Shown: positions 1 through 64,000 of the stretch, piece by piece | Position numbering within the stretch: position 1 is the first letter of the stretch | Layout: each line of letters opens with the position of its first letter | Source: Streptomyces sp. PCS3-D2 | Lineage (GTDB): Bacteria; Actinomycetota; Actinomycetes; Streptomycetales; Streptomycetaceae | Assembly: GCF_000612545.2 (NCBI RefSeq) | Contig: NZ_CP097800.1 | Coordinates: 124,001-188,000 of the forward strand | Direction: 5' to 3' | Length of the DNA: 64,000 bases | The notes under the pieces: model-generated | What the model saw: the letters and a program-made list of their open reading frames with translations, nothing else | The model's database searches: none | What the model was told of the DNA's origin: nothing | Made by a program: the position numbers and the translations under genes

Positions 1-8717
<8,717 letters not shown>

Positions 8718-62744: not shown

Positions 62745-63275
62745 GTGCTGGTCGAGACGTTGACAGCGTTGGCCGCCGCGGGTGGCGGCGCGGTCGTACA
62801 GGCCGCCGGGACGGACGCCTGGCACGGAGTACGGCGCCGGGTGGCGGAGCTCTTCGGGCGCGGCGACGAGCAGCGGGAGCGGGCCGAGCTGGAACGGCTG
62901 GACCGGACCTCCCGGGCGCTGGAACCCGGCGCGTCCGCGGACCCGGAGCGGGAGCGTGACCGGCAGAGCGGCATGTGGCAGGGGCGCTTTGAGTCCCTGC
63001 TGGAGAACGCGGACCCGCAGGATCAGCAGCGCGTGGCCGACGAGCTGCGGGCGCTGCTTCGCTGTGGCACCCTCCTCGAGGGCGACCTGGCCGTGTCCAC
63101 CGGAAAGGCCACGGCCACGGACGGGGGCCACGCCGTGACCGGTGTCGAGCGCACCGGCGGAGTGGACGGGCGGCCGGCGCGCGCGGTGAACACCGGGGAC
63201 GCGCAGGCCACCGGCCCGGGCTCCCGCGCCGTCAGCGGCATCACTGATTCCCGCCGTGACCCACGAGGCGCCTAG
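62745..63275 (+). CDS. NLR-partner protein with C-terminal Gly/Ala/Val repeat
   Basis: 176 aa from GTG 62745 with AAGGGGGAG upstream. A hydrophobic N-terminus (LVETLTALAAAGGGAVVQAA) and a helical body to ~110 (RRVAELFGRGDEQ; FESLLENADPQDQQRVADEL) are followed by two copies of a motif: STGKATATDGGHAVTGV (118-134) and NTGDAQATGPGSRAVSGI (149-166). The next gene, an NLR-type ATPase 56 bp away, has a third copy (VTGSGNAVADNGGIAVSGI, 41-59) in its N-terminus. Shared motifs between an NLR and its neighbour suggest templated signalling; see findings. Confidence 0.7.
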   Translation: MLVETLTALAAAGGGAVVQAAGTDAWHGVRRRVAELFGRGDEQRERAELERLDRTSRALEPGASADPERERDRQSGMWQGRFESLLENADPQDQQRVADELRALLRCGTLLEGDLAVSTGKATATDGGHAVTGVERTGGVDGRPARAVNTGDAQATGPGSRAVSGITDSRRDPRGA

Positions 63276-63331
63276 GCACCGGACACCGTCCGAAGGCCGG
63301 AGAGCGACGAGGCGAGGGATCGGGAGCGGCC

Positions 63332-64000
63332 ATGGCGAAATGGCACTGGGGCAGGCGACGTGACGGGGGCGGGCGCAGCCTGGCCCGGGGCACCGCCGTC
63401 GAAGGGGTGCGCGTGACGGGGGACATCCCCTCGTCGCCCCCCGCCCAACAGGTGACAGGGTCCGGGAACGCTGTCGCCGACAACGGCGGCATCGCGGTCT
63501 CGGGTATCTACAACGACCATTCCAGCGTGCTGCTGCCTCCCGAGGTGTTGCGGGCGGCGGCCAAGGTGAAGGCCCCGCGGGGCATGGACGATCTGCCCTA
63601 CCTGCCCGGTCACTTCGTGGGCAGGGAATCCGAACTGCAGGCCCTGGACGCGGCGTTGAAAGGGTCAGGACAGGTGCGCCTGCAGGCGGTGCACGGACTC
63701 GGCGGAGTCGGAAAGAGCGCCCTGGCCGCCCACTGGGTGGCCACACGGGCCCACTCCCACAAGCTGAGGCCGGTCCGGTGGATCACCGCCGACAGTCCCG
63801 CCGGCGTCGAGCAGGGGCTCGCCGCCCTGGCCGTAGCACTGCAGCCGGCCCTGGCCAAGGTGCTCACCACGGCAGCCCTGGCCGAGTACGCCCTCCAATG
63901 GCTTGCGGGACACACTGGCTGGCTGCTGGTCCTGGACAACGTCACCGACCCGGCTGACATCGCCGCACTGCTCGCGCGCGCCCCCGGCGGCCGCTTCCTG
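63332..64000 (+). CDS. NLR/STAND NTPase (NB-ARC type), 5' part
   Basis: Open frame from ATG 63332 to the right edge (223 residues visible), GGGAGC upstream. N-terminus has the shared motif (41-59), then FVGRESELQALDAAL and Walker A GLGGVGKSAL (122-131), a sensor helix VRWITADSPAGVEQGLAALA and Walker B GWLLVLDNVTDPADI. This is the NB-ARC/AP-ATPase pattern of STAND proteins, usually followed by TPR or other repeats beyond the window. In bacteria several such proteins act in antiphage defence; that role is only inferred here. Confidence 0.9.
   Translation, partial: MAKWHWGRRRDGGGRSLARGTAVEGVRVTGDIPSSPPAQQVTGSGNAVADNGGIAVSGIYNDHSSVLLPPEVLRAAAKVKAPRGMDDLPYLPGHFVGRESELQALDAALKGSGQVRLQAVHGLGGVGKSALAAHWVATRAHSHKLRPVRWITADSPAGVEQGLAALAVALQPALAKVLTTAALAEYALQWLAGHTGWLLVLDNVTDPADIAALLARAPGGRFL

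Follow-up and report, generated by a model that had tools for sequence, protein, structure and literature searches.

In fungi, the HET-s/NWD2 system couples a HeLo-domain effector to an NLR through the HRAM motif, of which two pseudo-repeats lie in the effector tail and one at the NLR N-terminus. In bacteria, the BELL/BASS amyloid signalosomes of Dyrka et al. 2020 are defined, in the published passages drawn on here, as adjacent genes for an NLR and a small helical protein that contains a hydrophobic transmembrane (TM) helix, with a shared motif at the N-terminus of the former and the C-terminus of the latter (PMC7889193). The same source sets out ten BASS motif families, a count that it calls conservative, and reports that other domains, CHAT or TIR for example, carry the motifs less frequently (PMC7889193); further unlisted pairs were met in 2020 (PMC8086366). 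On the Bell side BASS4 is said to occur in repeats relatively often, and it is described as the closest to HET-s in grammar usage (PMC8086366); a fusion of BASS3 to GFP is reported to form foci in Podospora, with proline mutants lacking foci (PMC9815663). Homotypic adaptors common to neighbouring proteins have also been described in bacterial conflict systems, and the effector-associated domains (EADs) of NTP-dependent conflict systems are described with VMAP-type ternary systems of multicellular bacteria (PMC7159879).

Here we describe a two-gene locus of Streptomyces sp. PCS3-D2 in a stretch of 64,000 nucleotides (the window), corresponding to bases 124001-188000 of a 7.5-Mb contig in a whole genome of 7.6 Mb. 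A GTG start at 62745 opens the gene of a small effector-like protein of 176 amino acids, hereafter the effector (62745-63275 including the stop, + strand); AAGGGGGAG stands upstream of this GTG, and the position of the start codon is kept in an alignment with 49 relatives, namely those whose match begins at query residue 1. Separated by 56 bp and running in the same direction, a second frame starts with an ATG at 63332 and encodes an NLR-type protein of 1055 amino acids (63332-66499, + strand; locus L009, 3333-6500) that passes the window edge at 64000. The first-pass annotation had proposed this order and spacing, which hold with both genes as placed, and had left the NLR beyond the right edge to be read; the frame continues to 66499 and contains a TPR array. 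From N- to C-terminus, the NLR comprises a short stretch with one motif copy, an NB-ARC domain with a Walker A, DUF7779 and a long TPR array, with Pfam matches to NB-ARC (33.2 bits, above cut-off), DUF7779, TPR_10 (249 bits) and TPR_12 (236 bits). The NB-ARC domain occupies 63626-64000 in the window and runs on to 64204 (G000:C1:187626-188204, + strand), and its Walker A (P-loop), GLGGVGKS, lies at 63695-63718 (+ strand). With an NB-ARC domain bearing a Walker A and a repeat sensor region, the receptor is of the NLR/STAND type.

The N-terminal domain of the effector (residues 2-112; 62748-63080, + strand) is modelled by AlphaFold as five helices at residues 2-20, 26-38, 42-58, 67-88 and 91-114, the first of them hydrophobic by eye. 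Neither Pfam nor NCBIfam gives a family at cut-off for this protein, NCBIfam giving none. As known domains, DUF6611 (E 0.11) and LeoA (E 0.034) were considered and set aside, both being weak and unconvincing; among 50 effector relatives, any one family profile matches at most 2 members, and weakly.

The motif shared by the two proteins spans about 25 residues and reads T-G-x-A-x-A-x2-G-G-x-A-V-[ST]-G-I. Two copies lie in the effector tail (copy 1 at 63084-63158 and copy 2 at 63177-63251, + strand) and one at residues 39-63 of the NLR (copy 3 at 63446-63520, + strand), ahead of the nucleotide-binding domain, which is where the first-pass annotation had located all three. Its pattern was right in outline and is refined here in two respects: the final I is replaced by V in copy 1, and each copy measures about 25 residues. 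A profile made from 42 of 61 printed copies, with the window's rows included and near-duplicates dropped by eye (A2), matches copies 1 to 3 at E 2.8e-9, 2.5e-9 and 5.4e-12, and a profile without the window's three copies, built from 39 copies of other loci (A3), matches them at E 3.1e-7, 1.2e-6 and 7.5e-12; run on the whole genome, A3 scores the window copies, in descending order, at 48.7, 33.9 and 32.0 bits. Because the copies were gathered with a pattern that demands some of the residues, the invariance of those columns in both profiles is in part a product of the selection.

In a high-GC genome, coding rich in Gly, Ala and Thr could produce such a likeness by chance or low complexity, and the effector tails are indeed rich in G, A and T. 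The local alignment between effector tail and NLR N-terminus scores 56 against 30.3 +/- 5.7 for shuffles, a plain alignment score reached by 3 of 3000 shuffled pairs. Against this reading, same-composition shuffles come nowhere near the real profile scores: 5000 of each were made, any match was obtained from 4881 tails and 3812 NLR N-termini, and the shuffled tails reached at most 11.9 bits and the shuffled NLR N-termini at most 7.2 bits, compared with 28.7, 30.3 and 46.2 bits for the real ones. The profile from other loci also recovers all three window copies, and A2 gives six matches at E ≤ 0.001 in the own genome, all of them within two effector-NLR pairs, that of the window and another near C1:5,162,000. 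On the strength of the shuffles, the A3 recovery and this genome-wide confinement to pairs, we reject chance or low complexity as the origin of the motif and regard it as exceedingly improbable. A third pair of the own genome, on contig 2, has a similar small protein (E 5.6e-7) and a motif match of only E 0.2. The first own-genome match outside a pair, at window 8377-8418 on the minus strand, is at chance level (E 0.125 over 14 positions) and sits in a 373-aa frame beside which no pair was seen.

Reading 110 loci with effector relatives, we found 23 helical effectors with the window's motif, or 20 after removal of 3 doubled across collections. All 23 carry both tail copies (22 by pattern and L045 by alignment), and the neighbouring NLR has a motif copy in 19 of the 20 distinct loci, recognised by pattern in 13, by eye in L048, L049 and L065, and in a convergent NLR in L019 (read as L175), L051 and L054. 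The exception is L044, where an NLR N-terminus was looked for at the locus and none was found. By profile, the NLR holds a single copy in each of the five helical-class pairs scanned (L124, L141, L142, L143 and L145). In a full-length alignment of 18 same-class effectors, chosen by a pattern requiring at least one motif copy, T119, G120, A122, A124, G127, A130 and G133 are invariant in copy 1, and T150, G151, A153, A155, G157, S160, A162 and G165 in copy 2. Across 15 NLRs, mean pairwise identity amounts to 62% in the motif, 29% in the stretch before it and 57% in the 25 residues after it; the residues after the motif are almost as conserved as the motif itself, which counts against our preferred explanation.

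The helical domain bears at least three other tail motifs elsewhere, GSIAAG, RHIM-like and SQVLGSG, these classes being our own labels assigned by pattern and eye; the RHIM-like tail is close by eye to a published BASS3 peptide. Tails were scored against NLR N-termini in 54 de-duplicated pairs out of the 110 loci, the rest having no recognisable NLR or being fused, masked, dropped or duplicate, and L120 was misfiled in this scoring. A tail scores on average 45.1 with its own NLR and 31.1 with other NLRs, a result matched by none of 10,000 permutations, and in no more than 5 of the 54 pairs is the own NLR the best-scoring one, a median of 8 NLRs scoring higher. In the window's class (16 pairs), tails score about equally with their own NLR (52.5) and with same-class NLRs (52.2; P 0.42) and far lower with NLRs of other classes (24.7), so matching goes by class and not by pair; strict pair specificity inside this class is rejected, the own NLR having no advantage. 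The RHIM-like class (3 pairs) scores 72.3 with its own NLRs versus 22.8 with other classes and the SQVLGSG class (3 pairs; L114, L119 and L122) 67.3 versus 21.1, and the largest class, GSIAAG (32 pairs, one misfiled), shows a weak contrast of 36.7 versus 30.9, with a within-class P of 0.0016. Among the other tail motifs, those of the two small classes thus have an evident counterpart in the neighbouring NLR, and that of the largest class a faint one.

A quick tree of 76 helical domains, for which 5 rows were dropped and 9 given new labels by hand, accounts for the window's class with one change and supports its branch with 97% SH-aLRT; given few columns and no inferred root, gain and loss of the motif look alike on this tree. 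At one locus (L035; G105:C1:8060478-8060972), helical domain, tail motif and NLR are apparently fused in one frame, reported as 1020 aa. In seven further proteins with the helical domain (L020, L021, L058, L059, L061, L085 and L099), an RHIM-like motif stands in the middle and a longer C-terminal region comes after it; downstream of these genes, none of the neighbours was recognised as a P-loop protein. L077, L086 and L102 represent a further tail motif class on the helical domain, likewise with no P-loop neighbour recognised.

The motif also travels on proteins of other kinds. A search of the genus with A3 gave matches at E ≤ 0.001 in 31 of 199 genomes, the own genome included, and in 24 of 27 loci with motif proteins the motif of a small protein is preceded by one or two predicted TM segments (two in 14 loci and one in 10, as called by a simple hydropathy scan). 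Many of these TM proteins share the form WKITV...STPL.WLL...GQL.GAS.Q...GIAALVWAL. The remaining three loci are two of the helical type (L144 and L145) and one with an NLR only (L164). An automatic rule requiring the motif in both a short protein and a P-loop protein picked out 18 of 30 loci, a set that left out L149, nearly identical to L011. In nine of the other twelve (L144 via L174, L147 via L176, L151, L153, L154, L158, L160, L163 and L165), a motif-bearing neighbour frame is seen by eye; none is visible by eye in L157 and L162, and L164 is the locus with an NLR only. L165/L182 carries yet another effector domain, longer and helix-rich, and at L147/L176 a TM-type motif effector is separated by a transposase-like frame from an NLR-like fragment that carries the motif.

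Four loci comprise three genes, in genomes G108 (L174) and G247 (L175), in S. griseocarneus (L051) and in S. iakyrus (L054). Their order is a small motif-bearing TM-type effector, then an NLR frame of about 1450-1510 aa, and then a convergent helical effector at the NLR 3' end, with one or two motif copies above the score limit in the NLR and two in the helical effector. The hydropathy scan flagged one TM segment in the small proteins of L174, L175 and L054, where inspection by eye shows a second; the TM-type gene is cut by the locus edge in L051 and L054, and L051 shows only its tail. In G108, the helical effector gene is broken into G108:C1:1881989-1882168 and 1883822-1884172, with ends about 1.6 kb apart. 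A motif common to a convergent gene and the NLR at four loci is hard to explain by duplication of adjoining DNA within one operon. A bolder proposal, which we hold to be rather doubtful, is that the motif constitutes a code outside BASS1-10 carried on at least two unrelated effector types, and that one NLR would drive two structurally different effectors at once, TM and helical, as a branched amyloid signalosome in Streptomyces.

In AlphaFold models of the window effector, mean pLDDT over blocks of residues 1-100 is 92-98 with 50 sequences and 75-93 with 18, and tail blocks are low to moderate, at 50-77 with 50 relatives and 42-75 with 18 sequences. With 50 relatives, tail strands are predicted at residues 122-125, 129-132, 153-156 and 161-164. 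With 18 same-class sequences, both copies show the same three-strand pattern, 31-32 residues apart; strands are predicted at 115-117, 121-125 and 129-136 for copy 1 and at 146-148, 152-156 and 161-168 for copy 2. Such a pattern is what a putative two-rung HET-s-like stack would need. A Foldseek comparison of the effector model with the PDB found no match at E ≤ 0.001 (best 0.92) and showed no link to HeLo, MLKL or HET-S at this cut-off; the best match of the effector sequence profile to solved structures had E 0.34, and the motif profile matched no PDB chain at E ≤ 10.

Set beside the described systems, the locus resembles BELL/BASS pairs, as far as the published descriptions examined go, in its occurrence in filamentous Actinomycetota and in the motif that a small helical protein and the NLR encoded next to it have in common, at the C-terminus of the one and the N-terminus of the other; relatives with the same effector domain carry the RHIM-like, BASS3-resembling tail. 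The effector is predicted with high confidence to have five helices, the first hydrophobic by eye, and might cross a membrane or form a Bell-like bundle. The locus differs from BELL/BASS in that three-gene loci and small TM proteins carry the window motif as well, arrangements absent from the parts of the published descriptions examined. By eye the motif is unlike BASS3, the one BASS peptide with which it was compared. With HET-s/NWD2 it shares the layout of two tail repeats in the effector and one at the NLR N-terminus, and its repeats are predicted as short strands around conserved glycines; no sequence kinship was shown, Foldseek gave no HeLo fold match in the PDB at E ≤ 0.001, and several NLRs beside TM-type effectors carry two motif copies. 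Like EADs, and again in multicellular bacteria, the motif is an element that an effector has in common with the receptor-like protein next to it, but it measures about 25 residues and sits on NB-ARC/TPR proteins, not on the VMAP-type ternary systems of the published account (PMC7159879).

We consider it probable that the locus is a two-gene NLR signalosome working like the BELL/BASS and HET-s/NWD2 amyloid-signalling pairs. Effector and receptor share a conserved motif that is tied to the NLR partner, is present on unrelated effector domains and follows the two-repeats/one-repeat layout. The explanation is favoured because the motif occurs in both proteins beyond chance, tails and NLRs match class by class, TM-type and convergent genes carry it too, the NLR motif is better conserved than the stretch before it (62% versus 29%), the predicted strand patterns of the two copies are equal, and one locus (L035) appears to fuse helical domain and NLR. 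Amyloid formation, templating and toxicity of the window pair are what we infer from these features. The NB-ARC/TPR protein would, judging from its family, sense a trigger through the TPR region and oligomerise, and the single N-terminal motif copies of the NLR would thereby be brought together to nucleate a cross-beta stack. This stack would template the two tail repeats of the effector, each forming a putative three-strand rung, and clustering of the helical domain with its hydrophobic first helix would trigger an output that most likely consists in membrane damage and killing of the hyphal compartment. Speaking against the explanation are the low to moderate tail pLDDT, the lack of a PDB match at E ≤ 0.001, the absence of a pair preference within the class, the low number of pairs (5 of 54) led by the own NLR, the weak matching of the GSIAAG class, the recognition of a motif-bearing P-loop neighbour by the automatic rule in 18 of 30 loci and the 57% identity after the NLR motif. 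Since the BELL/BASS kind of pair is already known, and perhaps the motif as well, we file the locus within this known kind, as a pair that probably works like BELL/BASS and is laid out like HET-s/NWD2.

On novelty, the motif may be known already, as one of BASS1-10 with BASS4 as the candidate. This is compatible with an amyloid-signalling pair, and we judge the chances that the motif is simply one of the ten published families, most likely BASS4, to be evenly balanced: BASS4 is reported to be repeated relatively often on the Bell side and to be nearest to HET-s in grammar usage (PMC8086366), and a motif found in 31 of 199 genomes of the genus is common enough for the 2020 survey to have met it. 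On the other hand, BASS4 was set beside the window motif by description only, and 24 of the 27 motif loci have a TM-type small protein, which a search led by the Bell domain could miss. In the literature, viewed as titles and abstract openings, TM effectors with the window motif are not told of and no BASS profile in print was found, which is no proof of absence.

How the motif acts could also be read differently. The tail and the NLR N-terminus might form a small ordered beta structure of fixed stoichiometry, a homotypic adaptor resembling EADs, with no prion-like templating; adaptors between neighbouring proteins are on record in the published account (PMC7159879), the sharing of a motif fits docking as well as templating, and so does class-wide matching that is blind to the individual pair. 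Such an adaptor seems unlikely: a copy has about 25 residues, its predicted confidence as an independent fold is low, the layout is the two-repeats/one-repeat one of HET-s/NWD2, and the sister tail class resembles BASS3, whose GFP fusion is reported to make foci in Podospora that proline mutants do not (PMC9815663). It is quite unlikely that the small protein is instead a regulator that holds the NLR inactive or tethers it, with the output elsewhere. The order of small gene and then receptor suits this role too, and no relative of known function was detected for the helical domain. Exchangeable outputs are the better fit, however, for the small proteins with TM segments that stand in for the effector elsewhere, and for the four loci in which both kinds flank one NLR.

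If the amyloid-signalling explanation is true, filamentous bacteria would use an exchangeable motif code, with several motifs per effector scaffold and several scaffolds per motif, mirrored by the neighbouring NLR. This code could predict partners of Streptomyces NLRs, which in two plasmid records are annotated as tetratricopeptide repeat proteins only. The two clear pairs of the own genome, together with the third, weaker pair, would be a natural test of the insulation of templating within one cell, and the two-repeat/one-repeat layout would offer a bacterial counterpart of HET-s/NWD2 for structural work.

Across the phylum, 4 of 396 genomes have matches at E ≤ 0.001: the own genome, a further member of the genus, a genome from a different family (L170) and a genome whose match is a chance frame (L171, GC3 0.39); as a rule the best 21 first-look candidates per genome were scored, so weaker carriers may be missed. 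Wide spread of the motif in the phylum is rejected on this count, with 4 genomes of which one is chance. The profile search suggested by the first-pass annotation did find motif-bearing NLR-neighbour pairs in other genomes, in addition to recovering the window copies with A3. That annotation held that the NLR and its effector-like neighbour share a motif, and this is borne out by a conserved, portable one that keeps to the pair whatever the species, effector domain or gene orientation. Its interpretation is thereby partly supported; the amyloid nature and templating of the motif, its being unlisted, and a killing or membrane-acting role of the small protein are putative. The two outcomes it had named as contrary, loss of the motif in homologous pairs and broad occurrence in unrelated low-complexity proteins, are both at odds with a partner copy for 19 of 20 distinct effectors, with own-genome matches at E ≤ 0.001 that all lie in pairs, and with matches in 4 of 396 phylum genomes, one of them chance. 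In L170 (G492), which is not from the genus, the frame next to a TM-type protein with motif copies is encoded on the opposite strand and has one motif copy together with a P-loop-like stretch. Carriage on viral contigs was considered and dropped, as 25 pattern matches included no relative.

Relatives of the effector itself, whether by domain, tail or both, occur in 153 of 296 genomes of the genus, and 75 of 80 named loci with such relatives are from Streptomyces. Among plasmid records, 53 hold effector relatives and 20 hold relatives of the small protein of the second own-genome pair. In the two plasmid records that were opened, the pair is annotated as 'hypothetical protein' and 'tetratricopeptide repeat protein'. 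Motifs of this kind may escape automatic annotation: in NZ_CP106797.1 (L186, 6436-6726), the annotated NLR start omits the motif, which the open frame upstream holds.
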